Shown here piece after piece: positions 15,344-56,546 of a stretch of 58,052 nucleotides of DNA (position 1 is its first letter; each line of letters starts with the position of its first letter). Position numbers and translations under genes: made by a program. Below the pieces are notes generated by a model. The model saw only the letters and a program-made list of their open reading frames with translations, was not told the origin of the DNA and searched no databases. Location of the stretch: contig JANYHB010000070.1 of NCBI GenBank assembly GCA_025359265.1, positions 1-58,052 on the forward strand, given 5' to 3'. Source of the stretch: Hyphomicrobiales bacterium. GTDB taxonomy: Bacteria; Pseudomonadota; Alphaproteobacteria; Rhizobiales; Aestuariivirgaceae.

Positions 15344-15353
15344 TAAGATGAAC

Positions 15354-17212: not shown

Positions 17213-17243
17213 ATCTCCTCAAGTAGCATTGCAGTAACGGCGT

Positions 17244-18002: not shown

Positions 18003-18131
18003 TGAAATCTCCCATTTATCTTCTGGCTCAGTCTCTGACGATTGGCGCCAAACGTCCAGCAAAAACCGACTCAGTTATTGACAAAACTCGATTTCCGGAT
18101 TGATCTGATCCAAAAAAAATGGGAGCGCTTC

Positions 18132-18977: not shown

Positions 18978-18978
18978 G

Positions 18979-20178: not shown

Positions 20179-20180
20179 AC

Positions 20181-21011: not shown

Positions 21012-21019
21012 GGTGAGCC

Positions 21020-21946: not shown

Positions 21947-22272
21947 TCCGTGTGAAAAACTTCTTCTGTGCTCGCCCACCATTCTCCGGCTTGGCGGGTT
22001 TCTAAAGCTGCTTGCATCGGGTCAGTGATGCTCCACCATTCCTGCATGCGCGGAGCTGATTTTATCTCTTGCATGTCCTTGGCATAGTCGCTGCCGTGAT
22101 ATTCCCAATAGGCGATCAACAGGTTTTCCGGCTCACGCAGGAAGATGGAGTAATTTTTCACGTTGCTCTCGGCGATACCGTTCAGGATTTCGGGCCACAC
22201 GGCAGCGTGAAGGCGCTTATATTCTGGAATGATCTCTGGCTTCAGATGAATGATATGGCACATTCTTTTCAT
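21943..22272 (-). CDS. L-rhamnose mutarotase-like protein
   Basis: 109 residues from the ATG at 22272 (MKRMCHIIHLKPE), preceded at about ten bases by AGGA; the frame continues to 22323 without family similarity. It shows the RhaM pattern: Y-x3-H then VWPEIL (residues 17-28), NYSIFL, LLIAYWEY, and MQEWWSITDPMQ. RhaM interconverts alpha and beta anomers. Last gene of the CUT1 sugar operon, so the imported sugar may be a rhamnose-like or other hexose whose anomer matters. Confidence 0.88.
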   Translation of the reverse strand: MKRMCHIIHLKPEIIPEYKRLHAAVWPEILNGIAESNVKNYSIFLREPENLLIAYWEYHGSDYAKDMQEIKSAPRMQEWWSITDPMQAALETRQAGEWWASTEEVFHTD

Positions 22273-22326
22273 GGGTCTATTTATCCTCATCAGTTGAAGC
22301 GGCAACTGTGCCCCTGCCAGCACATA

Positions 22327-22764
22327 TCATTTTTTGCTGCGCCACCAGATCAGCAGCGCCAGCACCGAGGCAATGACAGCCACCGTCCACACGAAGGGAT
22401 GAAAATAAAAAGGCGTTGCAGCCAACATGGCCTTGCCTGCCACGGTATCAGGATTAGGCGGCGCGAGGAAAAATTTGCCATAAAGATAGGCAGCCCAGAT
22501 CGAAACCAGCAAAACAATGCAGAAAATCATCGCAACCACCATGGCAATGGTGATGACGGCTTTCACCCTTACGCCTGGCCTGGCCAGCGGCAGCAAATTG
22601 TTGATGAGACCAGCCAGCACAACCAGCATGCAACCCACTGCGAACAACCCAATGCTGAATGGTTGAAAAATCAAGACCAGAGCAAAAAGGCCAAGCCCGA
22701 TGATGAACAGTTCAAGGCGCAAGGCAGCGCGGGCAGACATGCCGGTTTGGCGAATCTCGTTCAT
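22327..22764 (-). CDS. Small four-helix membrane protein
   Basis: 145 residues with four hydrophobic segments: about 20-38 (LFIIGLGLFALVLIF), 40-58 (GLFAVGCMLVVLAGLIN), 68-90 (AVITIAMVVAMIFCIVLLVS) and 120-141 (PFVWTVAVIASVLALLIWW), ending in basic RSKK. I do not recognise the family. It starts with ATGA overlap on the ATPase gene, so it is translationally coupled to the importer and may be an accessory subunit; small membrane proteins are known in some two-ATPase CUT1 systems such as the glycerol importer of rhizobia. Confidence 0.75.
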   Translation of the reverse strand: MNEIRQTGMSARAALRLELFIIGLGLFALVLIFQPFSIGLFAVGCMLVVLAGLINNLLPLARPGVRVKAVITIAMVVAMIFCIVLLVSIWAAYLYGKFFLAPPNPDTVAGKAMLAATPFYFHPFVWTVAVIASVLALLIWWRSKK

Positions 22765-23849
22765 GCGCGCACCGCCTTGGCATCTTCACCAAAAACATGA
22801 ATTTGGCTTGGGTCTGGCCTTAAATGCAGGGCTTCGCCGATTTTCACGCGCATTTGGCGCGGCACCACAACACGTATATCATTGCCGCCCTGGGTGCGGG
22901 CATGAACCAGGGTTTCGGCACCCATCGGCTCAATGAGTTCAGCTTTGGCTTGGATGTTTTCCGTGCTGGCCTTGGATTCTGTGGCAAAAGCACGCGGCCT
23001 GATGCCAAGGGTGATTTTCGGCGATTTAAGCGCGCCGACTCTTTCATTGGTGGTGATTTCAAGATTTTGCCCATTAAAGCTGATGCGGGCTTTGCCCTTT
23101 GAGAAGTTCTGCAACTGGGCTTCCACCAAATTCATTTGCGGCGTGCCAATAAAGCTGCCCACAAAGACATTGGCAGGCTTGGCGAAAACCTCATGGGGGG
23201 TGCCTACTTGTTCAATCAATCCATCTTTCATGATGGCGATGCGGTCTGCCATTGTTAAGGCTTCAAGCTGATCATGCGTAACGATGACAGTTGCCTTAGA
23301 CAGGTTTGCAAGCACTTGCTTGATTTGGCCGCGCATGGAATGGCGCAGCTCCACATCAAGGCGAGATAGTGGTTCATCAAACAGGAAACAATTTGGGTCT
23401 CGCACAATGGCGCGGGCCACGGCAACCCTCTGCTTTTCGCCTTCGGATATTTGGCCCGGCAACCGCTTGAGCACAGGGCCAAGATGCAAGATCTCCGCAA
23501 CCTTATCCACCCGGGAATTGATCTCGGCGGCGCTGATTTTTTCATGATGCAGCGGCATGGCGATATTTTGGCCAACAGTGAGTGCTGGATAGAGGGCGTA
23601 AAATTGAAACACCATGGCGATGTTACGCTTCTCGGGCGCAAGTTCGTTCATGCGTTGTCCGGCAATGATGACTTCGCCCGAGGTGATGCGTTCCAAACCG
23701 GCAATCATTCGCAATGTTGTGGTTTTGCCGCAGCCAGAAGGGCCCAGCAGGCAAACCACTTCGCCCTTCTTGACCGAAAGATCAACATCACGCGCGGCAA
23801 CAAAGTCGCCATATTTTTTAGTCGCTTGTTTGAGTTCAATGGTGGACAT
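22761..23849 (-). CDS. CUT1 ABC transporter ATPase A (degenerate signature motif)
   Basis: 362-residue MalK/UgpC-like ATPase with C-terminal TOBE/OB regulatory domain. Walker A GPSGCGKTT (36-44), Q-loop FQFYALYP (81-88), Walker B FLFDEP with D158/E159, and H-loop H192 (IVTHDQLEAL) are intact. The ABC signature is unusual: residues 134-139 read ISEGEK where LSGGQ is expected. The partner ATPase (27398-28489) has the complementary defect. Its start overlaps the permease stop as TAATG. Part of a nine-gene sugar operon. Confidence 0.92.
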   Translation of the reverse strand: MSTIELKQATKKYGDFVAARDVDLSVKKGEVVCLLGPSGCGKTTTLRMIAGLERITSGEVIIAGQRMNELAPEKRNIAMVFQFYALYPALTVGQNIAMPLHHEKISAAEINSRVDKVAEILHLGPVLKRLPGQISEGEKQRVAVARAIVRDPNCFLFDEPLSRLDVELRHSMRGQIKQVLANLSKATVIVTHDQLEALTMADRIAIMKDGLIEQVGTPHEVFAKPANVFVGSFIGTPQMNLVEAQLQNFSKGKARISFNGQNLEITTNERVGALKSPKITLGIRPRAFATESKASTENIQAKAELIEPMGAETLVHARTQGGNDIRVVVPRQMRVKIGEALHLRPDPSQIHVFGEDAKAVRA

Positions 23850-24793
23850 TAGCGCTTCACCGTTCCGAAGGTTACGCCCCGCAGCAGATGATCTTGCAGG
23901 AAGAAGGTGACGAAGAATACCGGGATCAAGAACAGCGTTTCAATGGCCGCAAGCAGGCCCCACAAAACTCCGATGCCGCCGCCCGCCACCGCTTGGCTCA
24001 TGCCCACCGGCACGGTGCGTGTGTCAACCCCGGTCAGCAGCAAGGCAAACAGGAACTCGTTCCAGGTGAGGATCAATCCGAAAACGAAAGTGGCGGCAAG
24101 GCCTGCGATAACTTGCGGTAAGCAAATTTTGAAAAACACTTTCACGTCCGATGATCCATCCAGCCGTGCCGCATCTTCAACATCCAATGAAAGTTCATCA
24201 AAAAAGCTTTTCATCATCCAGATCGTGAAAGGTAGATTAAAAGCCGTGTAAAGCATGATGATGCCGAGATAGGAACCTGAAAGGCCGGTAATACGGAACA
24301 TCAAGATCACCGGAATGATAACCACAATGGCGGGCAACATGCGGGTGGTGAGAATCACAAACAGATAGGTATCATTGCCTTTTAGCGGATAGCGCGAGAA
24401 GCCGAAAGCCGCGAGCGTTCCGATGATGAGGGCAAGAAAGACCGACACGCTGGCGATGACGATTGAGTTGAAAAAATAGCGATCAAAGCCGGTGTTTTCA
24501 GCGGCGGCACCCGCTGTCATCGAACGTGAGAAAACCGATGTGTAGTTTTCAAGAGTGGGCGTGAACACATAAGCGTCTGGGATCAACCCGAATAGATGGG
24601 TCGGAATGAATTTGGGTGGAATGGCCAAGGCTTCCGTTTGAAGTTTGAAACTGGTGATGATGATGAGCAATACCGGGAGAAAATAAATCAGGCTGATCAA
24701 TCCGGCAAACAGGGTTTGGCCCCATCCCGCCTCACTGACGCCTGATGCTTTTCGAAAGCCCAGCTTTTCCCACATTGAAGCGGTTTCACTCAT
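23849..24793 (-). CDS. CUT1 ABC transporter permease (MalG type)
   Basis: 314 residues from the ATG at 24793 (MSETASMWEKLGF), which overlaps the upstream permease stop by eight bases; a start at 24823 would add ten residues. About six membrane segments. MalG-type features: LPVLLIIITSFK near the N-terminus, FFNSIVIASVSV, and the EAA loop SLDVEDAARLDGSSDVKVFF followed by CLPQVIAGLAATFVFG and WNEFLFALLL. C-terminus GVTFGTVKR is typical. Confidence 0.93.
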   Translation of the reverse strand: MSETASMWEKLGFRKASGVSEAGWGQTLFAGLISLIYFLPVLLIIITSFKLQTEALAIPPKFIPTHLFGLIPDAYVFTPTLENYTSVFSRSMTAGAAAENTGFDRYFFNSIVIASVSVFLALIIGTLAAFGFSRYPLKGNDTYLFVILTTRMLPAIVVIIPVILMFRITGLSGSYLGIIMLYTAFNLPFTIWMMKSFFDELSLDVEDAARLDGSSDVKVFFKICLPQVIAGLAATFVFGLILTWNEFLFALLLTGVDTRTVPVGMSQAVAGGGIGVLWGLLAAIETLFLIPVFFVTFFLQDHLLRGVTFGTVKR

Positions 24794-42799: not shown

Positions 42800-43693
42800 T
42801 CACGCTCCTCTATATTTAATCCGCAATTGATTGGGGGCCATGCCGTATGCGGCGGCGAAATGGGCATAAAATTGGCTGGTGGAACCGAAACCGCTGGCTT
42901 CAGCCACTGTTGCAATGGCCACATCGCTTTCCAACAGCAAGCCGCGCGCCCGCAAAAGACGCATGCGCAAGACGAATTGCTTAAGCGGAATGTTCATCGC
43001 TTTCGAAAAAATGTTGAGCGCATAATTAGGATGCAGGCCGGTAACTTCGGTTACGTCTTCATTTTTCAGATGCTGATCTAAATTTTCCAGCACGTGCCGC
43101 ACCATATTCACCACATGGCGGATGTGGGCTGAGGCCAACGATTGGGGCGCTTTTTTCCTGGCCCATGGTTCTTTGATCAACTGCAAGCCTTGCATCTCCA
43201 TACGGCGGAACAGGGCGTTGAGTTCCATTTTGAGAATGTCCAAACGCTCGGCATTCACCGCACGATAATCGCTGTGCCAACGCATCAGCATATCATAGCT
43301 GCACAGTGCCACAGGGCAGGCGACGATGGCGCCATTCAACAACGCCGTTTGCAATTCTGCCAGGTGCGGCATCATCAAAAACACATCAAGCGGGATATAG
43401 ATGTTGCAGAGTTCCGGCTCTCCGTATGGTTCCACGGCGATAAGCTGATGCGGCACATTCGCCCAAAAGATTACCAGCTGGCCAGGTTCCACCATAATCT
43501 CGGCCCCATCCATATTATATTTCAATTGGCAGTTCTGGGTGAAATTAACCTCCACGTGACCATGATGATGGGGATGGGCCATAATCTGCGGCTTGAACAC
43601 GCGCATGCCAAATCGGCCAAAGGCCTTAGAGCGTGCATAAAATCTACGCTCACTGGCAACGGTGCCTGACACTTTGGCAATGATACCAGCCAT
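42800..43693 (-). CDS. AraC-family regulator, MelR/AgpT-like
   Basis: 297 residues from ATG 43693; the longer frame uses TTG 43711. N-terminal cupin sensor domain with HPHHHGHVEVNFT, LVIFWANVPHQL and IYIPLDVFLMMPHL, closely recalling MelR of E. coli (HWHGQVEVN, FWACTPHQL). The C-terminal double helix-turn-helix spans about residues 195-297 (LHPNYALNIFSKAMN, FVLRMRLLRARGLLL, ASGFGSTSQFYAHF). MelR activates melibiose genes, and in S. meliloti the AraC-type AgpT activates the agp/aga genes. It is divergent from the AgpA-like operon, fitting that role. Confidence 0.9.
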   Translation of the reverse strand: MAGIIAKVSGTVASERRFYARSKAFGRFGMRVFKPQIMAHPHHHGHVEVNFTQNCQLKYNMDGAEIMVEPGQLVIFWANVPHQLIAVEPYGEPELCNIYIPLDVFLMMPHLAELQTALLNGAIVACPVALCSYDMLMRWHSDYRAVNAERLDILKMELNALFRRMEMQGLQLIKEPWARKKAPQSLASAHIRHVVNMVRHVLENLDQHLKNEDVTEVTGLHPNYALNIFSKAMNIPLKQFVLRMRLLRARGLLLESDVAIATVAEASGFGSTSQFYAHFAAAYGMAPNQLRIKYRGA

Positions 43694-43835
43694 GCGTAAC
43701 AATTTCACCAATCTTTAAAACTCGGAATTGTTATTATGGAAACGGGATTGCCGCAAGCCCCAATTTAAGTGAACCTGTGGCAACGGAGAGTCTTCGAAGC
43801 TCCGACAAAAAGAATAAAGTTTTGGGAGGATAATA

Positions 43836-45896
43836 ATGAAAACAGTAACAGGCCTGTTGGCTGCGCTGCTGGCGCTTGGTGTATCGGGCAACGCGGCAAG
43901 GGCGGATGCTGTGCCAGATGCCCCGAAGTTTGACGCGCAAGGCAAAGTGACGCTGGTGGGCGTTGGCGATATTCTGGAATACAAAGCGCTCGCCTCATAC
44001 AATGAGCCAGATTTTGTGAAAGCTTTGGAAAAAGCTGGCAAGTTGCCCGCGCTGAAGGATCGGTTGCCGAAAGAGCCGATGGTTTATAAAACCGGCAACA
44101 TGAAAGACGGCGTGGGCGTTTATGGTGACGTGATGCGCCATGTGATCGGCGGCCGTCCGGAAGGCTGGAATTACTGGGCGGGCCAATCCCAAGGCTGGGG
44201 CGGCATCGACATTGGTTTGCAAGAATGTTTGACCCGCACGGGCCCCCTGTTCCAAGTGAAGGCTGAAGAACTCCAGCCACTGCCAAACCTCGCCAAAGCC
44301 TGGGAATGGAGCAAAGACGGCCATGAACTGACCATGCACCTCATCGAAGGCGCCAAATGGTCTGACGGCCAGCCTTTTTCAGCTGATGACGTGATGTTTT
44401 ATTGGGAAAAGAACGTGCTTGATACCAACGTTCACCCCTTGAACGGGGCGACACCTGATACTTTCGGCAAAGGCACAAAGCTTGATAAAATTGATGCCAA
44501 CACCATCAAGTGGACGTTTGCCGCGGCCTTCCCAACCTCAGCACTTTATGAAATGGCTTACGGCAAGTTCTGCCCCGGCCCCATGCACATCTTGGCGCCA
44601 CAACATCCCGCCAATTCCAAAAACACTTATGATCAATATAAGAACGCCTTCCCCGGCACCTACATGGCCATGCCCACCATGGGCGCTTGGGCCGTTGTAG
44701 ACCACAAGCCAGACAATATTGTGGTTCTGCGCCGCAATCCTTACTATTGGAAAGTGGACGAGAAGGGCAATCAATTGCCTTACCTGAATGAAATGCACTA
44801 CCGCCTGTCCACCTGGGCAGACCGTGACGTGCAAGCCGTGGCCGGTTCGGGCGATTTCTCCAATCTTGAGCAGGCTGAAAACTATGTTGAGTCTCTGAAG
44901 AAAGCAGCCGATCCAGCTTCTCCGGCACGATTGGAATTTGGCCAACGCACCATCGGCTATACGCTGGACTTCAACTATTCAGCCAATGGCTGGGGCGAAA
45001 CCGATGAGCGCAGTGTGGCCGTTCACAAATTGAACCGCGACCTGAACTTCCGCAAAGCCGTGACAATGATGCTGGATCGCCAACGCTTGGGTGAATCACT
45101 GGTGAAGGGCCCCTTCACAACGATTTATCCTGGTGGTCTTTATGCTGGCACCAGCTTCTATGACAAGGCTTCCACCGTCTATTATCCTTTCAATGTCGAC
45201 GCTGCCAAGAAAGCCTTGGAAGCTGCCGGCTTGAAAGACACCGATGGAGACGGTTTTGTCAACTTCGCCGGTGGCAAGAATGTGGAAATCACACTTCTCG
45301 TCAACGCTGATTATCAGTCTGATAAGTCGCTTGCCGAAGGTGTTGTGGCAATGGGTGAAAAGGTGGGACTGCGGGTTATCCCAAAAATAATATCGGGCAA
45401 AGACCATGATGCGGCACGTGATGCAGGCAAGTATGACTGGATGGTGCAACGCCAAGGCACCGAAGTGATCACGGCCGTACAAAACACCGACCATTTGGCT
45501 CCGGTTGGGCCAAACACCACAGACTTCCACAAGGCCGGCACTGACGGCAAGGTGGACATGATGGACTTTGAAGCCAAGCTCACCGACGTGGTGGCAAAGT
45601 TCATGGCCGCGAGCGATCCAAAAGAACGCATAGACCTGATGAAGCAATACCAGAAAATGGCCACTGAGAACGTTTATCAAGCCGGTCTCACGGTCTATCC
45701 TGGGGCTTTGATTGTCAACAAGCGCTTTTCCAACATCGCGCCTGGTGCCCCAATCTTCATGTATAACTGGGCGGAAGATAACATCATCCGTGAACGCGTG
45801 TTTGTGGCTGCCGACAAGCAATCCAAGAACGAGCTGTTCCCCAACACCTTGCCCGGCAAGCCTGGTTCTGCACCTGGTGAAGGCTTGGTAAAGTAA
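43836..45896 (+). CDS. AgpA-like periplasmic glycoside-binding protein (SBP_bac_5)
   Basis: 686-residue binding protein with a 23-residue signal peptide (LLAALLALGVSGNAARA-D) and RBS GGGAGGA. SBP_bac_5 features: PLPNLAKAWEWSKDGHELTMHL, KWSDGQPFSADDVMFYWE, RDLNFRKAVTMMLDRQRLGE. At nearly 690 residues it is far longer than peptide-binding DppA (about 530) and fits AgpA, the alpha-galactoside-binding protein of S. meliloti that belongs to the oligopeptide-binding family. The adjacent MelR-like regulator and GH4 enzymes support an alpha-galactoside or related ligand rather than peptides. Ligand is inferred. Confidence 0.9.
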   Translation: MKTVTGLLAALLALGVSGNAARADAVPDAPKFDAQGKVTLVGVGDILEYKALASYNEPDFVKALEKAGKLPALKDRLPKEPMVYKTGNMKDGVGVYGDVMRHVIGGRPEGWNYWAGQSQGWGGIDIGLQECLTRTGPLFQVKAEELQPLPNLAKAWEWSKDGHELTMHLIEGAKWSDGQPFSADDVMFYWEKNVLDTNVHPLNGATPDTFGKGTKLDKIDANTIKWTFAAAFPTSALYEMAYGKFCPGPMHILAPQHPANSKNTYDQYKNAFPGTYMAMPTMGAWAVVDHKPDNIVVLRRNPYYWKVDEKGNQLPYLNEMHYRLSTWADRDVQAVAGSGDFSNLEQAENYVESLKKAADPASPARLEFGQRTIGYTLDFNYSANGWGETDERSVAVHKLNRDLNFRKAVTMMLDRQRLGESLVKGPFTTIYPGGLYAGTSFYDKASTVYYPFNVDAAKKALEAAGLKDTDGDGFVNFAGGKNVEITLLVNADYQSDKSLAEGVVAMGEKVGLRVIPKIISGKDHDAARDAGKYDWMVQRQGTEVITAVQNTDHLAPVGPNTTDFHKAGTDGKVDMMDFEAKLTDVVAKFMAASDPKERIDLMKQYQKMATENVYQAGLTVYPGALIVNKRFSNIAPGAPIFMYNWAEDNIIRERVFVAADKQSKNELFPNTLPGKPGSAPGEGLVK

Positions 45897-45907
45897 AGCA
45901 CTCCTGT

Positions 45908-45937
45908 TCCTCCCTCCCCTAAATCGGGGGGGGAGGA
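45908..45937 (+). promoter_or_regulatory. Hairpin overlapping the ribosome binding site of the next permease gene
   Basis: 12-bp stem TCCTCCCTCCCC with GGGGGGGGAGGA (one G-U pair), loop TAAATC. The right arm contains GGGAGG (45931-45936), the only strong Shine-Dalgarno-like sequence before the permease start. Same palindrome family as 739-763 and 15453-15475. The stem could mask the permease RBS and lower its translation relative to the binding protein. Confidence 0.6.
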
Positions 45938-45954
45938 CTTTGGATTTTCAGATC

Positions 45955-46959
45955 ATGCTGCGCTATCTCGCATATCGCATTCTCGCGGCGATCCCCGTGC
46001 TCTTCATCATGAGCGTTATCACTTTTGCAATCATTCATGCGACGCCGGGTGACTATGCGGATTATGTTGGCAACATGCTGCGCACACAGGGCCATGCCAC
46101 CAATGAAGTGGCGCTGGCTGCAGCCGCGCAATTTCGTATAGACCACGGGCTGAATGACCCACTGATTATTCAATATTTCCGCTGGATCTGGGATGTATTG
46201 CGTGGTGATTTTGGCACCAGCTATTTCTTCAACCGCCCAATATCTGAAGTGGTGTGGCAACGCCTGCCGCCAAGCCTGGGTTTGGTCATCACCGTTCACA
46301 TTATCGGCACGATCATTGGGGTAACGCTTGGAATCATTGCCGCTGCCAACCAATATTCCTGGGTGGATAGTGCGCTGTCCTTCTTCGGGTTTCTTGGCAT
46401 TACGGTTCCAAAATTCCTGTTCGCCCTGGTATTGATTTACATTTTGGCCTTCCGCCTTGGCATTCAAGAAATTGGCAGCTTTTATTCGAGCTATTGGAGC
46501 TATCAGCCAATGTCTTTGGGCAAGTTCTGGAATCTTATTCTACATGTGTGGCCGATTATCTTGGTGGGTGTGCTCAACGGCATTTCCTACAACATGCGCA
46601 TGATGCGCGGCAATCTGCTGGATACATTGAACGCCCAATATGTTGAAACCGCCCGCGCCAAGGGCTTGAGCGGTGCCATGGCGATTATCAAACATGCGGT
46701 GCCCAATGCATTGCATCCGTTGGCGGCCTATCAAGGTGCCGTCATGCGTTATATGATTGAGGGCGAGATTGAAACCGCTATCACTTTTGGCTTGCCAACC
46801 ATTGGCGTGGCCATCGTGCTTTCCATGGGCATTGGCGATGTGCTGGTCACCGCCACACTGATGCTTATTCTGGGCACCGTGCAAATTATCGGTAGCATTG
46901 TATCAGATTTATTACTTGCGTGGCTTGACCCGCGCGTCCGTCTGGGCGGTGCTGCATGA
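45955..46959 (+). CDS. ABC transporter permease, AgpB/DppB-like
   Basis: 334 residues from ATG 45955 (MLRYLAYRILAAIPVLFIMS); the frame may instead start at TTG 45940, which sits only three bases after GGGAGG. DppB-type features: IIHATPGDYADYV near residue 30, RGDFGTSYFFNRP, EAA loop YVETARAKGLSGAMAIIKHAVPNALHP. About six membrane helices. The RBS lies within a stable hairpin shared with the intergenic palindrome, so translation may be reduced compared with the binding protein. Confidence 0.9.
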   Translation: MLRYLAYRILAAIPVLFIMSVITFAIIHATPGDYADYVGNMLRTQGHATNEVALAAAAQFRIDHGLNDPLIIQYFRWIWDVLRGDFGTSYFFNRPISEVVWQRLPPSLGLVITVHIIGTIIGVTLGIIAAANQYSWVDSALSFFGFLGITVPKFLFALVLIYILAFRLGIQEIGSFYSSYWSYQPMSLGKFWNLILHVWPIILVGVLNGISYNMRMMRGNLLDTLNAQYVETARAKGLSGAMAIIKHAVPNALHPLAAYQGAVMRYMIEGEIETAITFGLPTIGVAIVLSMGIGDVLVTATLMLILGTVQIIGSIVSDLLLAWLDPRVRLGGAA

Positions 46960-48107
46960 GCGACATTTTAATTGGGCCATTCGTAAAACAGGAGGGAACT
47001 GATTATCTGGATCAAATTCCCGCATCTGCCCGCCACGCCACGAGCGAGAGCTATCTCACTTTAGTGTGGCGAAAGTTCCGGCGCTCGGTGATGGGCATGA
47101 TTGGGCTTATTCTGGTAACCCTGCTTTTTTTAACCGCCATTTTCGCGGATTTTGTTGCCCCCCTTGATCCCAAAGAACCAACACTGGCTTTCGCCCCGCC
47201 CGACACGGTGAGCTTTTACAATAAAGACGGTTTCACGTTCAGGCCACAAACCTTTGCGATATCGGAATCGGGCGCCTTGGACCCTATAACGTTTCAACCT
47301 CTCAACGGCCCGGATTATGATCACCCGCGGCCCGTCAAGTTTTTTGTTCAGGGCTATGCTTATCATGCACTGGGCTTTATCCCGGCAACAGTTCATCTGT
47401 TCGGCACAGATGACGGGCAACCCTTTCATATTTTGGGAACCGATAAATTTGGGCGCGATATATTTGCGCGCGGCGTGATCGGTTCACGCATTTCACTGGC
47501 GGTGGCCCTTATCACCGTCACCTTTATCACCATTGTGGGAACTTTGGTGGGCCTGCTTTCGGGCTATTTGGGCGGGCGCTTTGATGCTTGGGTGCAGCGT
47601 GTGGTCGATATTTTTTTCGCGCTGCCGCAGCTGCCACTTTATCTTACTTTGGCAGCACTCATCCCGGTTGCCGCTCCCAGCATGGTTTTTCTGTCCATTG
47701 TGGTTGTGGTTATTGCCGCCTTGAATTGGGCGCAGCTTTCACGCGAAGTGCGCGGCAAAACCCTGGCCTTGGCGCGCATTGAATATGTGCGCGCCGCCGA
47801 GGCTGTGGGTGCCACTGATATGCGCATTATTCTGCGCCATATCCTGCCCAATGTGGTGAGCCATGTTATCGTGTCTATCACCACCTGGATTCCACAAGTT
47901 GTTTTGATTGAATCATTTCTGGGCTATCTGGGCTTTGCGGTGAAACCGCCGCTGATCTCTTGGGGCATGATGTTACAAGATTGCGGAAACTTCTCAGTGT
48001 TGGGCTCCTACCCTTGGATACTTTCGCCAGTGGCATTTGTCTTGATCACCGTGTTCGCGTTCAACGCGTTGGGCGATGGACTGCGTGACGCGATTGACCC
48101 CTATTGA
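46956..48107 (+). CDS. ABC transporter permease, AgpC/DppC-like
   Basis: 383 residues, longer than usual DppC (about 300) because of a periplasmic insertion between the first helix and the channel domain (about residues 70-150, including DPKEPTLAFAPPDTVSFYN). Then FHILGTDKFGRDIFARGVIG, the DppC-type hallmark, EAA loop YVRAAEAVGATDMRIILRHILPNVV and LGDGLRDAIDPY. The insertion is typical of the AgpC/YejE-like group. ATGA overlap with the upstream permease. Confidence 0.93.
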   Translation: MSDILIGPFVKQEGTDYLDQIPASARHATSESYLTLVWRKFRRSVMGMIGLILVTLLFLTAIFADFVAPLDPKEPTLAFAPPDTVSFYNKDGFTFRPQTFAISESGALDPITFQPLNGPDYDHPRPVKFFVQGYAYHALGFIPATVHLFGTDDGQPFHILGTDKFGRDIFARGVIGSRISLAVALITVTFITIVGTLVGLLSGYLGGRFDAWVQRVVDIFFALPQLPLYLTLAALIPVAAPSMVFLSIVVVVIAALNWAQLSREVRGKTLALARIEYVRAAEAVGATDMRIILRHILPNVVSHVIVSITTWIPQVVLIESFLGYLGFAVKPPLISWGMMLQDCGNFSVLGSYPWILSPVAFVLITVFAFNALGDGLRDAIDPY

Positions 48108-48112
48108 GGCGC

Positions 48113-49732
48113 ATGATGGAACAGACTGACATGATCCTTGAAGCCCGCAACGTGGCTGTTACTTTTAAAGTGGAAGGCGGCACGGTGGAAGCCGTGAAAG
48201 ATGTGTCTTTCGCGCTGCGCAAAGGCGAAACCATCGCCATTGTGGGCGAAAGCGGATCCGGCAAATCGGTGACGGCGCGCGCAGTGATGCGGCTGCTTTC
48301 GCGGCGCGCAACCATGGGCCGCGGCTCCTACATTAATCTCGGCGGCCAAGATATTTTGAAATTGCCTGAGCGCGAGATGCGCAAACTGCGCGGCAGCCGT
48401 GTTTCAATGATTTTCCAAGAGCCGATGACCTCACTGAATCCGGTTTACACGGTGGGTTCGCAAATTGCCGAAGTAATCCGCATTCATAATAAAATCTCCA
48501 AAGCCGAAGCGATGGCCAAAGCGCTGGCGCTGCTTGAAGAAGTGCAGATACCTGATCCGGAAGCACGGCTGAAACAATATCCGCATCAACTGTCAGGCGG
48601 CCAGCGCCAGCGCGTGATGATTGCCATTGCTTTGGCCAACCGCCCAGATATTCTGATTGCCGATGAGCCCACCACAGCCCTGGACGTAACCGTGCAGGCG
48701 CAGATTTTGAATTTGATCAAAGATCTGAAAACCAAATATGGCATGGCGGTGATTTTGATCACGCATGACCTCACCGTGGTGCGCCAGTTTGCCGACCGCG
48801 TTTATGTGATGCAGCATGGCGAGGTGAAAGAGCACAATACCACAGCGGCATTATTCGCACGTCCGCAACATCCCTATACCCAGCGTCTACTGGCCTCAGA
48901 TCCCAAGGGCACAGCCAAACCACTGGAAGGCGACTTGCCTGTGGTGCTTTCAGGCAAGAATGTCAGAGTGACTTATACGTTGAAAAAAGGCGGGCTGTTC
49001 AGCGCTATCTATACTGATCTGCAAGCGGTGGATGGCTTGAGCCTCGAACTTAAGCGCGGCGAAACGCTGGGCCTTGTGGGTGAAAGTGGCTCAGGTAAAA
49101 CCACTTTCGGCCAGGCGCTGATCAGGCTTCTTAACCCGCATGAGGGGGAAATCACGTTTGATGGCACGCGTATCGATGGCCTGAAGCGCGATGGTCTGCG
49201 CCCCTTCCGCTCGCGGATGCAGATTGTATTTCAAGACCCGTTCTCATCGATGAACCCGCGCATGAACATCCGGCAGATTATCGAAGAAGGTTTAATCGTC
49301 AATCAAATCGGCAAAACTGATGCAGATAGATTAGACCGCGTACAGAAAGCGCTGGAAGACGCGGGGCTGCCCACCAATATCCTCAATCGCTTTCCACATG
49401 AGTTTTCAGGCGGCCAACGCCAGCGCGTTGCCATTGCGCGGGCCATAGCCATGGAGCCTGAATTCATTCTGCTGGATGAACCCACGTCGGCGCTCGATCT
49501 TTCCGTACAGGCCCAAATCATTGAGTTGCTGCGCAAGCTGCAGCGCGAACGAGGGCTTTCCTATCTCTTCATCAGCCATGATCTCAAGGTGGTGCGGGCC
49601 TTGTGCCACCGCGTTATCGTGATGCAGAATGGCAAGATTGTAGAGCAAGGGCCAGTGGCCGACGTTCTGAACAACCCCAAAACTGATTACACCAAGCGCC
49701 TGGTGCGCGCCGCATTTGAAATTGCTGCATAG
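48113..49732 (+). CDS. ABC transporter ATPase, fused DppD-DppF type (AgpD-like)
   Basis: About 540 residues holding two complete ABC domains. Domain 1: Walker [13 protein letters not shown], signature [15 protein letters not shown], Walker [13 protein letters not shown]-loop [14 protein letters not shown]. Domain 2: Walker [13 protein letters not shown], signature [15 protein letters not shown], Walker [13 protein letters not shown]-loop [11 protein letters not shown]. Both sites look active. Start ATG 48113 or 48116; the frame reaches a TTG at 48104. It powers uptake through the two preceding permeases. Confidence 0.93.
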
Positions 49733-49741
49733 GAGATTTTT

Positions 49742-51118
49742 ATGACCGCACTTCCACGCATTGCCTTTATCGGGGCTGGATCAACAGTTTTCATGAAGAA
49801 CATTATCGGCGATGTTCTGCAATGTAAGGCCATCAGCGGTGCCACCATTGCCTTGATGGACATCAACCCTGAGCGCTTGAAAGAATCTGAAATTGTTGTT
49901 GGCAAATTGATTGCAACTTTGGGCGTGAAGGCCAAGGTTGAAATCCATGGCAGCCAGCGCAAGGCGCTCGAAAAGGCGGATTTTGTGGTCACGGCTTTCC
50001 AGGTGGGCGGCTATGAGCCTTGCACAGTCACGGATTTTGAAATTCCAAAAAAATACAAGCTGCGCCAAACCATTGCCGACACGTTGGGCGTGGGGGGCAT
50101 CATGCGGGGTTTACGCACCGTGCCGCATTTGTGGAGTGTTTGCGCCGACATGATGGAAGTCTGCCCCGATGCCATCCTTATGCAATATGTGAACCCCATG
50201 GCCATCAACACCTGGGCCATTTCTGAGAAATTTCCCAAGATCAAACAGGTTGGGCTGTGCCATTCTGTGCAAGGCACAGCCTTTGAATTGGCCCGCGATC
50301 TTGATATTCCCATTGAAGAAATTCGTTACCGCGCCGCTGGCATCAATCATATGGCGTTTTATCTGCAATTTGAACACCGCCAGAAAGATGGTTCCTACCG
50401 CAGCCTTTATCCCGATTTGCTGAAAGGCTACCGCGAAGGCCGCTTTCCCAAGCCTTCGCATTGGAACCCGCGCTGCCCTAATAAAGTGCGCTATGAAATG
50501 CTCACGCGGCTGGGTTATTTCGTGACTGAAAGTTCAGAGCATTTTGCTGAATATACGCCCTATTTCATCAAGGAAGGCCGCGAAGATCTGATCGAAAAAT
50601 TCGGCATTCCGCTGGATGAATATCCCAAGCGCTGCGTAGAGCAAATTGCACGGTGGAAAAAAACCGCCGAAGAATACAAATCGGCCGAGAAAATTCACGT
50701 TGCACCCAGCCACGAATATGCTTCATCAATCATGAACTCGGTGTGGACGGGTGAGCCTTCGGTAATTTATGGCAACCAGCGCAACAATGGCTGCATAACC
50801 TCACTGCCGGATAATTGCGCCGCTGAAGTGCCCTGCCTGGTGGATGACCGTGGCATTCAGCCCACATTTGTGGGGGAGTTGCCGCCTCAGCTCACCGCGC
50901 TCATCCGCACCAACATCAATGTGCAGGAACTGACCGTGCGCGCATTGCTTACTGAAAATCGCGAACACATTTATCACGCCGCGATGATGGACCCGCATAC
51001 GGCGGCTGAGTTGGATTTGCAGCAGATTTGGGATCTGGTGGATGACCTGCTGGCAGCCCATGGCAATTGGCTGCCTGAGTTCGCCCGCCTGCCAACCAAG
51101 ATGCAAGCTGCTGAATAA
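49742..51118 (+). CDS. GH4 family alpha-galactosidase-like enzyme (MelA type)
   Basis: 458-residue NAD+- and metal-dependent glycosidase. N-terminal Rossmann IAFIGAGSTVFMKNI, then ADTLGVGGIMRGLRTVP, NPMA (151-154), metal site GLCHSVQGT with Cys173, and AGINHMAFYLQFEHR (199-213). The last pattern is close to MelA alpha-galactosidases. GH4 enzymes cleave by transient oxidation at C3 and elimination. RBS GGAGA precedes the ATG. Its stop overlaps the next gene start as TAATG. With MelR-like and AgpA-like proteins encoded in the same locus, melibiose or raffinose-type sugars are likely. Confidence 0.92.
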   Translation: MTALPRIAFIGAGSTVFMKNIIGDVLQCKAISGATIALMDINPERLKESEIVVGKLIATLGVKAKVEIHGSQRKALEKADFVVTAFQVGGYEPCTVTDFEIPKKYKLRQTIADTLGVGGIMRGLRTVPHLWSVCADMMEVCPDAILMQYVNPMAINTWAISEKFPKIKQVGLCHSVQGTAFELARDLDIPIEEIRYRAAGINHMAFYLQFEHRQKDGSYRSLYPDLLKGYREGRFPKPSHWNPRCPNKVRYEMLTRLGYFVTESSEHFAEYTPYFIKEGREDLIEKFGIPLDEYPKRCVEQIARWKKTAEEYKSAEKIHVAPSHEYASSIMNSVWTGEPSVIYGNQRNNGCITSLPDNCAAEVPCLVDDRGIQPTFVGELPPQLTALIRTNINVQELTVRALLTENREHIYHAAMMDPHTAAELDLQQIWDLVDDLLAAHGNWLPEFARLPTKMQAAE

Positions 51119-52623
51119 TGTTGAAGCCACCGCAGCATTTTGTGATTGTGGGTGGCGGCACGGCTGGTTGGTTGGCCGCGCTGATGCTGCGCCAGACTTT
51201 ACCTGATGTGCACAAAATCACCGTGGTGGAAAGCTCCAAAATTCCGAACATTGGCGTGGGTGAGGGAACCACGGCGGTTTTTCGCCAAATGCTGAAGGGC
51301 TTTGGCTTTGATGAGTTTGAGTTTTTGCGTGAGGCTGAGGCCACCATAAAATTCGGCATACGCCATAAAGATTGGCGGCGCTTGGGCCACCACTATGATG
51401 GCCCGATTGATGATCCACATTTGGTGATGGAACCCGCCAGTTCACGCCCGCAAAGCTATATCGACATTTTTTCTTGTGCCGCCGGTCGCAGATTGGCCGA
51501 CACACATTTGTTTGCTTATTTGCTGGATCAACAGCGAGCGCCCTTCGCTCGCAAAACTGATGGCAGCTTGGTGCCAATGGGGCCTTACCATAACGCTTAC
51601 CATTTTGATCAAGCCAAAGCGGGCGAGTGGCTGCGCAACAAATCACGCGGCGTTGAGAAGATCGACGCGCAGGTCAACGGCATCACGCGGGAAAAAGAGT
51701 CTGGCAAGATAACCGCGTTGATATCCGACGCAGGTGAAATCACGGGGGATTTTTTCATCGATTGCACCGGTTTTCGGCGTACGCTGATTTCGGCAATGGG
51801 TGCAAGATGGATATCGTATGCCAAGGAATTGCCGGTTAACCGCGCCATGCCATTTTGGCTCGATATCGGCGAAGATGAAGAGCTCACACCATACACCACT
51901 GCCTGGGCGCAGGGCGCGGGCTGGTTGTGGATGATCCCCACCCAAAAGCGCATGGGCTGCGGCTATGTCTATTCCGATCACTTCACAACGCCTGACCAGG
52001 CCCAGGCCGAAATCGAAAAGACGCTGGGCCGCAAGATTGAGCCGCGCAATGACATCAAAATAGATTCAGGCCGCCTGGACAAGGCGTGGATTGGCAATTG
52101 TTTGGCGCTTGGCCTTGCTTCAAGTTTTCTCGAACCGCTTGAGGCCACATCCATCCACGGAACCATTGTGCAGATGATGGTTTTTTTATCACATCACATA
52201 AATTGCACAACAAAGGATGCTGACCAATACAATGGCTTTGCAGCGCGCCAACTTGATGACTTCAAGCAATTCATCAATATGCATTATGTGAGTGAGCGGC
52301 GCGACACCAGCTTTTGGCAAAGTGTGGCGCAGGACTTTATCAGCGATGAAACCAAATCGCGCCTCGCAACGTGGCAGAGGAAGATGCCTGGTTGGGAAGA
52401 TTTTTCGCCCTTGCCCGGTGGTTTTGCGCATACCGAACAGCAGCTGTATTACCCGGTGCTTGATGGCCTGGGTTTGCTGAACCGCGCCGTTGCGCAGGCC
52501 CATATGGAAAGCCTGCCAGACTTGCGCAAAAACGCCAAGTCAGCGGCAGATACACTAACTGAAGAATATCGCGCAGCTGCGCCTCGCGCATTGCGGCACC
52601 GAGAGTTTTTAAAGTCACTTTAG
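51118..52623 (+). CDS. Flavin-dependent (tryptophan) halogenase family protein
   Basis: 501-residue PF04820-type flavoprotein. FAD fold GGGTAGWLAALM (12-23) and IGVGEGTTAVFRQML; candidate catalytic Lys78 in EATIKF, aligned by eye with PrnA Lys79; halogenase motif WLWMIP (269-274), matching WxWxIP; and FLEPLEATSIHGT with Glu343 in the place of PrnA Glu346. All key residues therefore look present. Family members halogenate indoles or other aromatics using FADH2 from a separate reductase, none of which is encoded nearby. It is translationally coupled to the GH4 gene upstream and ten bases from a second GH4 gene. Related halogenases sit in carbohydrate-uptake loci of Xanthomonas and Caulobacterales, but usually with TonB receptors. 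Confidence 0.92.
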   Translation: MLKPPQHFVIVGGGTAGWLAALMLRQTLPDVHKITVVESSKIPNIGVGEGTTAVFRQMLKGFGFDEFEFLREAEATIKFGIRHKDWRRLGHHYDGPIDDPHLVMEPASSRPQSYIDIFSCAAGRRLADTHLFAYLLDQQRAPFARKTDGSLVPMGPYHNAYHFDQAKAGEWLRNKSRGVEKIDAQVNGITREKESGKITALISDAGEITGDFFIDCTGFRRTLISAMGARWISYAKELPVNRAMPFWLDIGEDEELTPYTTAWAQGAGWLWMIPTQKRMGCGYVYSDHFTTPDQAQAEIEKTLGRKIEPRNDIKIDSGRLDKAWIGNCLALGLASSFLEPLEATSIHGTIVQMMVFLSHHINCTTKDADQYNGFAARQLDDFKQFINMHYVSERRDTSFWQSVAQDFISDETKSRLATWQRKMPGWEDFSPLPGGFAHTEQQLYYPVLDGLGLLNRAVAQAHMESLPDLRKNAKSAADTLTEEYRAAAPRALRHREFLKSL

Positions 52624-52633
52624 GAGAATTCAC

Positions 52634-54130
52634 ATGACCTTCAAAATCGCCATCATTGGTGCGGGCTCTATCGGCTTCACTAAAAAGCTGGTGAGCGATA
52701 TTCTTTGCGTGCCGGAATTTGCTGAAGTTGAAATCGCCCTTACTGACAACAATCCGCATAATTTGGATATGGCAAGGCAAATTATTGAACGCTTGGTTGC
52801 CGCCAATAAATTGCCCACAAAAATTACCGCAACAACCGATCGGCGCCGCGCTTTTGACGGCGCTAAATATGTGATGAACTGCGTGCGAATTGGCGGGCTG
52901 GAGGCCTATGCGGGCGATGTAAACATCCCCCTCAAATATGGCATTGATCAATGTGTCGGCGATACCATTTGCGCTGGCGGCATTATGTATGGCCAACGCA
53001 CAATTCCCGCCATGCTGGATTTCTGCCAAGACATGCGCGAGGTGGCGCACAGCGATCTACTGCATCTTAACTATGCCAACCCCATGGCGATGAACACATG
53101 GGCTTGCCTTGATTATGGCAAGGTGAATACGGTGGGCTTGTGCCACGGCGTGCAGAATGGATGGCGGCAGATTGCCAAGGCCTTGGGCATCACAAACCAT
53201 TTGGAGCTGGATATCATCTGCTCCGGCATCAACCATCAAACCTGGTATATCGGGCTTAACCATAAAGGCCGCAAGATCGGAAAAGATGAACTGTTGGCCG
53301 CATTTGAAAAACATCCGCAATTTTCCGAGCAGGAAAAAGTGCGCATCGACGTGTTGAAGCGCTTTGGCTTCTACTCCACCGAGAGTAACGGCCATCTTTC
53401 CGAATATCTGCCATGGTATCGCAAGCGGCCCGACGACATCACCAAATGGATCTCGCTGGAAGATTGGATTCATGGCGAAACGGGCGGTTATCTGCGTTAT
53501 TGCACTGAGAATCGGAACTGGTTTGAACAGGATTTTCCGATGTTCTTGGAGGCCGCCGGAAAGTCTCTCGCAAATTACCAACGCACCGATGAACATGCCT
53601 CGCATATTTTGGAGGCATTGGAAACCGGTCGAACTTATCGCGGGCACTTCAACGTGAAGAATGGCGGCATAATCAAAAATTTGCCGGCTGATTGCATTGT
53701 TGAAAGCCCCGGCCATGTGGACCGTTTCGGCATCAACATGACGGAAGGCATTGAGCTGCCGCTCGCCTGTGCCGCCACGTGCATGTCTTCCATCAATGTG
53801 CAGCGCATGAGTGTGCAGGCCGCCGTAACAGGCGATGTTGATTTACTGAAACTTGCGGTGTTGCATGATCCATTGGTCGGCGCCATCGCAACGCCAGAGG
53901 AAGTTTGGCAAATGGTGGATGAAATGCTGGTGGAGCAAGCCGCATGGTTGCCGCAATATGCCGATGCCATACCTGCTGCCAAACAACGGTTGCAGAACCC
54001 AAAAGTAAAGACCCGCAATTGGGCGGGGGCGGCGCGCCAACAGGTGCGCACGGTCGAAGAAATGCGCGTGGCCAAGCCCACTTCAATCGCCAATGTTGGC
54101 CATGCCCTGGGCACCAGGCTTATGGGTTGA
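52634..54130 (+). CDS. Second GH4 family glycosidase
   Basis: 498 residues. Rossmann IAIIGAGSIGFTKKLVSDIL, GDTICAGGIMYGQRTIP, NPMA (149-152), metal site GLCHGVQ with Cys170, and CSGINHQTWYIGLNHKG (196-212). It differs clearly from the first GH4 enzyme (GINHQTW against GINHMAF) and is about 40 residues longer at the C-terminus, with a basic tail. It may accept another glycon, such as alpha-glucose or alpha-galacturonic acid. RBS AGGAG precedes the ATG. Last gene of the Agp/Mel-like operon. Confidence 0.92.
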   Translation: MTFKIAIIGAGSIGFTKKLVSDILCVPEFAEVEIALTDNNPHNLDMARQIIERLVAANKLPTKITATTDRRRAFDGAKYVMNCVRIGGLEAYAGDVNIPLKYGIDQCVGDTICAGGIMYGQRTIPAMLDFCQDMREVAHSDLLHLNYANPMAMNTWACLDYGKVNTVGLCHGVQNGWRQIAKALGITNHLELDIICSGINHQTWYIGLNHKGRKIGKDELLAAFEKHPQFSEQEKVRIDVLKRFGFYSTESNGHLSEYLPWYRKRPDDITKWISLEDWIHGETGGYLRYCTENRNWFEQDFPMFLEAAGKSLANYQRTDEHASHILEALETGRTYRGHFNVKNGGIIKNLPADCIVESPGHVDRFGINMTEGIELPLACAATCMSSINVQRMSVQAAVTGDVDLLKLAVLHDPLVGAIATPEEVWQMVDEMLVEQAAWLPQYADAIPAAKQRLQNPKVKTRNWAGAARQQVRTVEEMRVAKPTSIANVGHALGTRLMG

Positions 54131-54443: not shown

Positions 54444-55571
54444 ATGTCCAAACTCGTCAATATCCAAATCCTTCGCGCTATCGCCGCCCTTTCGGTGGTG
54501 GTTTATCATTTGGGCGTTGAGGCCACAAAAATCTGCGATGCCACCAAGCAGGCGTGCAGTTACGACACATTCTTTGGCCTCAATGGCGTGGCGTTGTTTT
54601 TTATGATCAGCGGTTTCATTATGGTGACGATCAGCTGGGATGATTTTGCCATGCCGGGCAATGCGGCGCGCTTTCTGCGCCGCCGTTTAGAGCGCGTCTT
54701 GCCGTTGTATTGGATTGTCACAACCTTGGCCGTGGCGGGTGTGATGCTCATTCCTAGCATGCTGAGTGTGCCGGTGCTGGATTTGGGATATATTGTCTCA
54801 TCATATCTTTTCTGGCCGGTTACGCGCATAAACGGCTTGGTGCGGCCCATTGCCAACCTGGGTTGGACGCTTAATCTCGAAATGATGTTCTATATTGTGT
54901 TTACCGGGGCTCTGTTCTGGCGGCGCATGACGGGGCTCTTGATCGCATTGGCAACTTTGTTGTTATTGGTGGCATTGCGGTTAAGCGGATTGTTCGCGTT
55001 GGATGGAAGTCTTGCCTCAGTGCCTCTGAATTTCTGGGGCGACCCGATTATTTTAAACTTCATCATCGGCATGTTGGCGGCTGTGGCTTATCAACAAGGG
55101 TTGCGATTATCGCGCCCGCTGGCCTTCGGTCTGTCGGCGGTAGCGCTGCTGGCGTGCGTCTGGGTGCGCTTCGGGTTGCAAGATTATGTCGCCAGCATCA
55201 GCGAAGATGGGTTGGCAAATCGCTTGCTGGGCATGGGCCCTGCCCTCTTGCTGTTTTCCGCCGCAACATTTGGACCGCAGCTTGATGTGACGCAAAAATT
55301 CTGGCGCTATGCTGTGCTGATGGGCGATGCATCATACAGCATCTATCTGCTGCACCCATTTGCCTTGCGCCCGATCAGCAAAATGTGGTCGGTTTTGGTG
55401 GGTGCGCATTTGCCGCCGATACTGTTCAGCCTTGTGGGCCTTCCTGTGGCCTTGGCCCTCAGTTTCGGGTTTTTTGTCTTTGCAGAGCGACCGTTTGTGG
55501 ATTTCTTCCATCGCCGCAGGAAAGCCCAGTCGATAAGCCACAAAAGCATGGCCGCCACCAACGTTATCTAG
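54444..55571 (+). CDS. Acyltransferase 3 family membrane protein
   Basis: 375-residue integral membrane O-acyltransferase (OafA/YrhL/NodX-like) with about ten helices. N-terminal NIQILRAIAALSVVVYHLG with the catalytic-region histidine, then NGVALFFMISGFIM, FLRRRLERVLPLYWI and C-terminal DASYSIYLLHPFALRPI. Such proteins acetylate or succinylate surface polysaccharides or lipids. No SGNH domain is fused. It stands alone between the glycoside locus and a sugar isomerase gene; substrate unknown. Confidence 0.92.
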   Translation: MSKLVNIQILRAIAALSVVVYHLGVEATKICDATKQACSYDTFFGLNGVALFFMISGFIMVTISWDDFAMPGNAARFLRRRLERVLPLYWIVTTLAVAGVMLIPSMLSVPVLDLGYIVSSYLFWPVTRINGLVRPIANLGWTLNLEMMFYIVFTGALFWRRMTGLLIALATLLLLVALRLSGLFALDGSLASVPLNFWGDPIILNFIIGMLAAVAYQQGLRLSRPLAFGLSAVALLACVWVRFGLQDYVASISEDGLANRLLGMGPALLLFSAATFGPQLDVTQKFWRYAVLMGDASYSIYLLHPFALRPISKMWSVLVGAHLPPILFSLVGLPVALALSFGFFVFAERPFVDFFHRRRKAQSISHKSMAATNVI

Positions 55572-55697
55572 CTCTCCCAAAAACCGATTAAAATTGTAAA
55601 CGGCGAAGGCTTAGGCACGCCTCTGCCTTTGCTGAAAGTGGAATTGCCATTCTGCCTAATTCAACCTAGAATTTCGTTCAGGAGTGCAAGCAAAATA

Positions 55698-56546
55698 ATG
55701 AACTTTCATCCGCGTATCGCTGTTTCAACTTGGTCGCTGCATCGCAAATTGGGTATAACTTATGCCAATGGGCCAAGCGGTTCAGACCACGCACCGCCCA
55801 TGGAAACATTTGGCAAGCCTGAAATCACCTTGCTCGATCTGCCGGCGGCACTTCGCGGCCATGGCTATGCCCGCGTTGAACTCTGCCACTTTCATCTGGC
55901 GTTGATTGACCCGGTATATCTGGAAGAGGTGCGTTCGTCTTTCAAAGACGCGGGAGTTATGATCCAAACGCTTCTGATCGACGATGGCGATATCACCAAT
56001 TCCGCCACCCGTTCACGCGATATGGCTTGGATGAATAAATGGATCGGCGTGTCGGCAAGACTGGGCACCATCCACGCCCGAGCCATTGCAGGCAAACAAC
56101 GGCCAAGTGCCGAGGCGCTGGCGCTTTCCATTTCAGGGCTTACACATTTGGCAAATAGCGCAGCCACCCAGGGCGTGAAGCTGGTGACCGAGAACTGGTT
56201 TGATCTCACTGCAACACCCGCGGAAGTGTATCACATTCTGGCGGGCGTCTCTGGCCTCGGCTTTTTGGCCGACACCGGAAACTGGGGCGGAACCACGAAA
56301 TATGCTGATCTCACCAGCATTTTTGCCCGCGCCCAGCTGTGCCACGCCAAGGCGAGTTTTACCGGCTTAACAATGGATGAGACGGACTATGCGGCATGTA
56401 TCGCTGCGGGCGAAAAAGCAGGCTATACCGGACCCTACACCCTGATTTTTGCCGATGAGGGCGATGAGTGGGAAGGCTTGGCAAAAGAGCGGGCGCTCGT
56501 TACAAATTTGATTACGCCGCCAGCTTCTTCATTAGACCGCGGTTAA
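55698..56546 (+). CDS. Sugar phosphate isomerase/epimerase family TIM barrel
   Basis: 282 residues from ATG 55698 (MNFHPRIAVSTWSLHRKLG), with CAGGAG about a dozen bases upstream; the longer frame from 55629 is not family-like. AP_endonuc_2-type barrel with probable metal ligands Glu in VTENWFDLTA, Asp in FLADTGNWGG, His in QLCHAKAS and acidic residues in IFADEGDEWEG. Substrate unknown. Its last 35 bases overlap the asd gene on the other strand. Confidence 0.88.
   Translation: MNFHPRIAVSTWSLHRKLGITYANGPSGSDHAPPMETFGKPEITLLDLPAALRGHGYARVELCHFHLALIDPVYLEEVRSSFKDAGVMIQTLLIDDGDITNSATRSRDMAWMNKWIGVSARLGTIHARAIAGKQRPSAEALALSISGLTHLANSAATQGVKLVTENWFDLTATPAEVYHILAGVSGLGFLADTGNWGGTTKYADLTSIFARAQLCHAKASFTGLTMDETDYAACIAAGEKAGYTGPYTLIFADEGDEWEGLAKERALVTNLITPPASSLDRG

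Follow-up and report, generated by a model that had tools for sequence, protein, structure and literature searches.

A halogenase-family gene recurs in alpha-galactoside import operons of three alphaproteobacterial families

We analyzed the gene for a halogenase-family flavoprotein, here called HAL, in a 58,052-nucleotide stretch of DNA from a Hyphomicrobiales bacterium (contig JANYHB010000070.1 of assembly GCA_025359265.1; the whole stretch is referred to below as the window). The reading frame at positions 51118-52623 has no internal stop. The Pfam model PF04820 (Trp_halogenase) matches residues 8-443 of the predicted protein (E=6e-101, 339 bits against a cut-off of 21). Residues 12-18 read GGGTAGW, and Lys78 and WLWMIP are also present, as an earlier note on this DNA had stated, while the catalytic Glu that the note placed at residue 343 is residue 342. 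HAL lies between two genes of glycoside hydrolase family 4 (GH4), termed GH4a and GH4b. The junction with the upstream GH4a reads GAATAATGTTG, such that the last base of the GH4a stop codon TAA is the first base of the HAL ATG. Ten bases separate the HAL stop from the ATG of GH4b (52634), which is preceded by AGGAG. The open reading frame (ORF), the Pfam match and the junction sequences bear out the earlier note's description of an intact gene, coupled by TAATG to one GH4 gene and followed by the other after a ten-base gap. We also considered a recent foreign insert, of which there is no sign, since the G+C content of HAL (53.1%) matches that of four measured operon genes (51.9-54.3%) and of the window (53.7%).

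The operon spans 43836-54130 and encodes a periplasmic binding protein of the SBP_bac_5 family (SBP), two permeases, an ATPase, GH4a, HAL and GH4b. Its genes and the adjoining regulator are as follows; f1 and f25 denote two genome families introduced below.

42800-43711, minus strand: divergent AraC-family regulator (Pfam; relatives in f1 and many in f25 have a related gene next to the operon)
43836-45896, plus strand: SBP_bac_5 periplasmic alpha-galactoside-binding protein of the AgpA/MelB type (Pfam, match to 6EPY, comparison with Sinorhizobium meliloti)
45940-46959, plus strand: Opp-type permease B (Pfam, S. meliloti comparison)
46956-48107, plus strand: Opp-type permease C (Pfam, S. meliloti comparison)
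48104-49732, plus strand: fused two-domain ATP-binding cassette (ABC) ATPase (NCBIfam scan, S. meliloti comparison)
49742-51118, plus strand: GH4a, a GH4 of the alpha-galactosidase type (83.6% identity with the GH4 at the 3' end of the locus in S. meliloti 1021)
51118-52623, plus strand: HAL, halogenase-family flavoprotein of 501 amino acids (Pfam, motifs, structure model)
52634-54130, plus strand: GH4b, the other GH4 (72% identity with the GH4 at the 5' end of the locus in S. meliloti 1021, whose position is that of melA)

The best match to the window SBP in the Protein Data Bank (PDB) is 6EPY, an alpha-galactoside-binding protein that aligns with residues 15-678 at 1030 bits, and the next match reaches 128 bits. 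The importers of two HAL loci from other families, L137 and L193, likewise find 6EPY as their best match (560 and 635 bits). Galactinol is presumably used by the organism from which 6EPY derives. GH4a and GH4b each contain both GH4 domains in Pfam, and the NCBIfam model PRK15076 ‘alpha-galactosidase’ gives the two GH4 neighbours 678 and 573 bits at a cut-off of 486. The motifs CHSV and CHGV mark the alpha-galactosidase and alpha-glucuronidase types of GH4, respectively; no claim here rests on them. Close relatives of the SBP (E<=1e-80) occur in 248 records of a plasmid collection, 149 of them from Rhizobium and 79 from Sinorhizobium, and the S. meliloti 1021 SBP is 64% identical to that of the window. 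Four rhizobial loci (S. meliloti 1021 and RCAM1115, R. tumorigenes and R. phaseoli) contain GH4b, SBP, two permeases, ATPase and GH4a. HAL has no match in these four loci, rhizobial chromosomes not having been searched for it.

According to its description (PMC4254191), the agp/mel operon of S. meliloti comprises agpT, melA, agpA and downstream genes, and raffinose and melibiose are the sugars for which operons of this type are known. The window resembles it in transporter type and in the possession of both GH4 genes. It differs in that the rhizobial loci examined have no halogenase, whereas the window has both GH4 genes at the 3' side with HAL between them. It perhaps differs also in the regulator: the operon type has an AraC activator of the AgpT kind, and the divergent AraC gene of the window found no match above 60 bits in the two S. 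meliloti loci. The rhizobial gene set without HAL, together with the 6EPY match, indicates that, by gene content, the window operon corresponds to the agp/mel alpha-galactoside operon of rhizobia, with HAL as the single addition. The uptake and hydrolysis of an alpha-glycoside, to which the earlier note had assigned the operon, can be narrowed to alpha-galactosides on the same two grounds. The Pfam scan covered nine window neighbours of HAL, and the ATPase was scanned separately with NCBIfam. These nine gave no match to a family of TonB receptors, flavin reductases or aromatic biosynthesis, in agreement with what the note had said of the vicinity. Two proteins of the genome exceed the cut-off of PF01613 (Flavin_Reduct), both on contigs other than that of HAL.

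To place HAL in a wider set of genomes, we searched 523 genomes of three alphaproteobacterial families: 69 from the window's own family (f1), 60 from f143 and 394 from f25, which includes Qingshengfaniella. A full-length HAL orthologue was present in 43 genomes, the importer in 46 and both in 43. The six HAL genomes of f1 (6/69) all belong to one genus. The importer occurs in seven f1 genomes, and in the seventh, G019, the contig stops inside the ATPase gene, so that the presence of HAL cannot be read. In f143, a family of small genomes (G+C content 30-31% in two loci measured), HAL and importer each occur in 19 of 60 genomes, and these are the identical 19. At a HAL threshold of E<=1e-140, 18 of the 394 f25 genomes carry HAL and 20 carry the importer, with both in all 18 (Fisher p=3e-29, uncorrected for kinship); in one of the 18, G1229, HAL is cut by a contig end. 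Two further f25 genomes with damaged HAL were scored as lacking it: in G1167 a broken HAL adjoins importer remnants, and in G980, which has no importer, a 92-residue match stands at a contig start. A draw of 385 genomes from the class contained, beyond the window, HAL only in G229 of f143 (484 bits, next 295), and a draw of 398 genomes from the phylum only in G800 of f25 (768 bits, next 319). Among plasmids, HAL matched 91 records, and in the 30 that were listed only a Sulfitobacter record (54%) exceeded 35% identity. A linkage confined to one strain, which the earlier note had named as the case against its proposal, is not what was found: the linkage recurs across three families, and we reject a strain-specific oddity because the arrangement is repeated across genera and families. 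HAL very probably belongs to the alpha-galactoside import operon, and its regular membership suggests that it probably carries out some step in alpha-galactoside use.

The neighbourhoods of 45 orthologue loci (six from f1 including the window, 19 from f143, 19 in 18 genomes of f25, and one on a plasmid of Sulfitobacter mediterraneus M342) were compared. The agp genes lie beside HAL in 44 of the 45, with contig ends hiding part of the set in L191, L197 and L198. HAL stands between GH4a and GH4b in f1, in many f25 loci and in Sulfitobacter, between GH4b and SBP in nine f143 loci, and behind the ATPase in ten f143 loci and in L203; a further order, with HAL behind GH4a, is found where clusters have no GH4b. 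HAL retains these partners through at least three different gene orders. GH4b was considered as the constant partner and rejected, since, within the stretch fetched, a second type of f25 locus (including L193, L201, L202 and L203) carries HAL but lacks GH4b; the constant partner is thus the importer. Two second-type loci also contain extra genes: those of L193 encode a GH36 enzyme, an IlvD/EDD-type dehydratase, a short-chain dehydrogenase/reductase (SDR) and a 2-keto-3-deoxy-galactonokinase, and that of L197 a GH42 enzyme. These are consistent with galactose as product.

In the Sulfitobacter locus (L089; plasmid NZ_CP081110.1, 136 kb, positions 10195-24586), the complete operon with HAL lies between IS6 and IS3 insertion-sequence transposase genes and may therefore move as a unit. 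It is very improbable, in our judgment, that HAL is an intact but passive passenger on such a mobile catabolic module. The transposase genes at the Sulfitobacter copy and the patchy distribution within each family would suit a passenger, but HAL is retained in assemblies of 1.1-1.6 Mb and in several gene orders, its motifs are kept in 44/44 orthologues, and its sole clearly broken copy (G1167) lies beside a broken importer. The low ratio of nonsynonymous to synonymous divergence (dN/dS) also argues against it: within f1 this ratio is 0.06-0.13 for HAL (6/15 pairs computable) and 0.02-0.13 for GH4a, GH4b and ATPase, with dS mostly near saturation. The corresponding dN values are 0.13-0.29 for HAL and 0.05-0.14 for the other three genes.

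Other members of the halogenase family have different surroundings. We found no SBP_bac_5 or GH4 gene beside the halogenase gene in any of 43 loci (29 and 14) drawn from the best-scoring non-orthologues, which are up to 39% identical to HAL by the search tool. Large ORFs, one per locus, were taken from ten of 19 listed loci of this kind, and all ten encode TonB plug or barrel domains. The link between other halogenases and TonB receptors that the earlier note had drawn agrees with these ten ORFs; TonB goes unmentioned in the main text of the BrvH paper (PMC5945002). The orphan halogenases BrvH (6FRL), Xcc4156 (6Y1W) and 9LUQ are like HAL in family, in motifs and in having no apparent biosynthetic cluster. 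The wider BrvH-type group differs from HAL in that TonB receptors adjoin its genes (the ten ORFs of ten loci), in contrast to GH4 genes and an ABC importer, in keeping His/Asn and Phe at the substrate site, and in its position in the family tree.

A midpoint-rooted tree was calculated with FastTree from 44 distinct orthologues, of which that of L198 is partial, together with 99 further family members and five PDB chains. It placed all HAL orthologues in one clade with support 1.0 and a stem of 0.66. The sister is the uncharacterized L051. The scanned neighbours of L051 and L080 (a sulfatase, an M81 peptidase and other peptidases) were inspected for a hint of function and gave no help. PyrH and SttH, the sole tryptophan halogenases in the tree (PrnA, RebH and Thal being outside it), do not group with the HAL clade, which is separate and has a long stem; the tree that the earlier note had proposed accordingly sets HAL apart from these two enzymes. 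The structure model of HAL has a predicted local distance difference test (pLDDT) score of 94. The 50 PDB matches listed for this model, of 605 at E<=0.001, are all halogenases of this family, with template modelling (TM) scores by query length of 0.80-0.88. HAL shares with the tryptophan halogenases PyrH (2WET), PrnA (2APG), RebH (2E4G) and Thal (6H43) the fold, the flavin adenine dinucleotide (FAD) motif, the Lys, the Glu and WxWxIP, but it is only 26-32% identical to them in structural matches and its indole-site residues are altered. Lys78, Glu342, GxGxxG and WxWxIP are each kept in 44/44 orthologues, and the exact WxWxIP occurs in 48/99 other members. Judged from these motifs, HAL likely still makes hypohalite.

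The residues that would surround a substrate are distinctive for the clade. Position 95 is Gly and position 97 is Ile in 44/44 orthologues, versus mostly His/Asn and mostly Phe, respectively, in the 99 others. Position 439 is Val in 36/44 and Thr in 5/44, versus mostly Phe; position 443 is Leu in 44/44, versus mostly Ser, Asn or Thr; and position 52 is Thr in the HAL clade, versus Phe in PyrH and either Ile or Val in most other members. At the positions of His83 (44/44) and Thr275 (42/44), 99/99 others carry Phe and Leu, respectively. The clade shows no variation at Asp98, Asp99 and His438, which, together with His83, are specific to it. In PyrH, F49, H92 and F94 touch the indole. These residue numbers were not found in PMC11021962. 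The BrvH equivalents of 438, 439 and 443 are named as indole contacts in PMC5945002. When HAL is compared with the tryptophan halogenases at the residues that hold the indole, positions 95, 97, 438, 439 and 443 are altered, and these changes make it unlikely that HAL binds indole in the known way.

These residues bear on the proposal, made in the earlier note, that HAL modifies an aromatic aglycone: once GH4 has cleaved an aryl alpha-galactoside, HAL would halogenate its phenolic or indolic aglycone. The catalytic motifs of arene halogenases in 44/44 orthologues are in keeping with this, as is the fact that the solved relatives of HAL are mostly named tryptophan halogenases. BrvH, moreover, has an altered site and still brominates indole, according to PMC5945002, whose authors nevertheless doubt that indole is the natural substrate. 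The occupation of the indole-contact positions by Gly, Ile, His, Val/Thr and Leu throughout the clade weakens the proposal, and the raffinose and melibiose for which the operon type is known (PMC4254191) speak against it as well. We consider an aromatic aglycone unlikely.

The reading that we favour, tentatively and without calling it probable, is that the HAL clade consists of flavin-dependent halogenases accessory to the agp/mel import operon, whose hypohalite acts on a hydrophilic compound linked to the galactoside. In this mechanism, reduced FAD from an unlinked flavin reductase would react with O2 and chloride or bromide, and the hypohalous acid would move to Lys78/Glu342. There a small hydrophilic compound would be halogenated, or oxidized through a halogenated intermediate. 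From the site residues and the operon partners we infer that this target would be hydrophilic and galactoside-derived; it would enter with the alpha-galactoside or be freed from it, and would be neither tryptophan nor an indole clamped between aromatic rings. Such a reaction may open part of the natural substrate to use, or may remove an inhibitory part. The hosts would be alphaproteobacteria that meet other galactosides than the ones imported by rhizobia. The narrower claim of a catabolic halogenase, in which the use of alpha-galactosides regularly includes an attack by enzyme-bound hypohalite on a substrate that is derived from carbohydrate and is not aromatic, appears possible but rather doubtful.

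The polar residues at clade-specific positions and the galactose-pathway genes of L193 could also point to a flavin monooxygenase or oxidase that needs no halide and acts on the sugar or polyol part, or oxidizes galactose; PF04820-like proteins named as a monooxygenase (QhpG) and a maturase (LodB) do exist. HAL, however, scores far below the cut-offs of the QhpG and LodB models (35 of 240 and 24 of 400 bits), and its clade keeps Lys and Glu in 44/44 and WxWxIP in 44/44, against an exact WxWxIP in 48/99 others. The GH4 pair also occurs elsewhere without HAL (in the four rhizobial loci, Qingshengfaniella and G1164), which, together with the retained halogenase motifs, leaves unsupported the earlier note's idea of a flavin oxidase feeding the 3-keto chemistry of GH4 enzymes. 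An oxidase or monooxygenase role of this kind seems to us improbable.

Several observations weigh against the favoured reading of a halogenase accessory to galactoside import. The importer and both GH4 genes occur without HAL in the four rhizobial operons, in G958 (Qingshengfaniella) and in G1164; the latter two truly lack HAL despite the importer, GH4a being followed directly by GH4b. Galactoside hydrolysis in itself thus does not require HAL. Raffinose and melibiose offer, in our judgment, no obvious site for hypohalite. In one orthologue locus, that of G1028 (f25), HAL is on a contig separate from the operon, next to an SDR gene. Within the genus, divergence is faster for HAL, at 64-73% identity, than for the GH4s and the ATPase, at 82-94%, though no faster than for the permeases, at 60-83%. 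Distances between HAL proteins correlate with those between importer proteins (r 0.84-0.88 over 40 loci, 0/999 permutations; 0.75-0.78 within f25), but SBP and ATPase correlate more strongly (0.97), suggesting that the history of HAL is partly its own. The site residues, finally, were placed by alignment, without a ligand-bound structure.

Some of these observations would suit a side function off the galactoside carbon, in which a halogenated signal or deterrent is made when alpha-galactoside is sensed and the operon provides the trigger. The absence of HAL from the four rhizobial loci examined, its faster divergence relative to the GH4 genes and its separation from the operon in G1028 would all fit, as would a major facilitator superfamily (MFS) transporter gene that adjoins the f143 cluster in L137. 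A trigger alone poorly explains, though, why one importer accompanies HAL in 43/43 HAL genomes, and no biosynthesis gene was found in the flanks scanned, which cover few loci. We regard a signal or deterrent as quite improbable.

The halogenase family is best known for making halogenated natural products, and HAL is a regular extra gene of an operon for the import and cleavage of alpha-galactosides. The natural role of halogenase-family genes in nutrient-uptake loci is unsettled, and the surroundings of HAL name a substrate class, the alpha-galactosides. In the PMC literature, among the matches listed by title and start of abstract, we found no paper that places a halogenase gene at a locus of the GH4, galactosidase or agp kind, subscription papers and preprints lying outside the search; the only full match, PMC11433161, concerns a fungal genome. 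If HAL truly uses halide, halide chemistry would be part of the breakdown of a common sugar class. Were the catabolic version true, HAL would become the first flavin-dependent halogenase known to us whose substrate comes from the carbohydrate side, and it would provide a first function for the orphan halogenases of uptake loci. Its occurrence in a named strain, S. mediterraneus M342 (protein WP_259956315.1), makes the function testable.

Several further features accompany HAL loci. In L137 (f143), a PhyH-type 2-oxoglutarate oxygenase gene (12293-13033) adjoins GH4a, a further oxidative enzyme beside alpha-galactosidases. Other f143 loci have a gene of 243-260 amino acids at this place, the Pfam scan having been made for L137 only. 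No PhyH-type gene is among the scanned neighbours in the window, L186, L193 and L197, the loci scanned for it. The MFS transporter gene of L137 lies at 1841-2974 and could encode an exporter or a further importer; several other loci of f143 have a gene of the same length (377 amino acids). In L038 (G005), from an assembly that is 66% complete, the SBP gene is in two frames (residues 1-388 and 386-678), reflecting decay or an assembly error.

Elsewhere in the window, consecutive plus-strand genes at 18979-21946, near ABC import genes, encode UPF0261, PEP_hydrolase-like and polyketide-cyclase-like proteins, which are little-characterized families. An acyltransferase-3 gene and a xylose-isomerase-like TIM-barrel gene (54444-56546, plus strand) begin 313 bases past the operon. 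This pair has no match in the three f1 relatives with contigs extending beyond GH4b (in L037 by only ~950 bases) and is therefore probably outside the operon. Genus relatives without the importer (L041-L048) have a GH4a-type gene 54-85% identical to that of the window, several with an adjoining AraC-type gene, indicating that such an alpha-galactosidase also serves other uptake systems.

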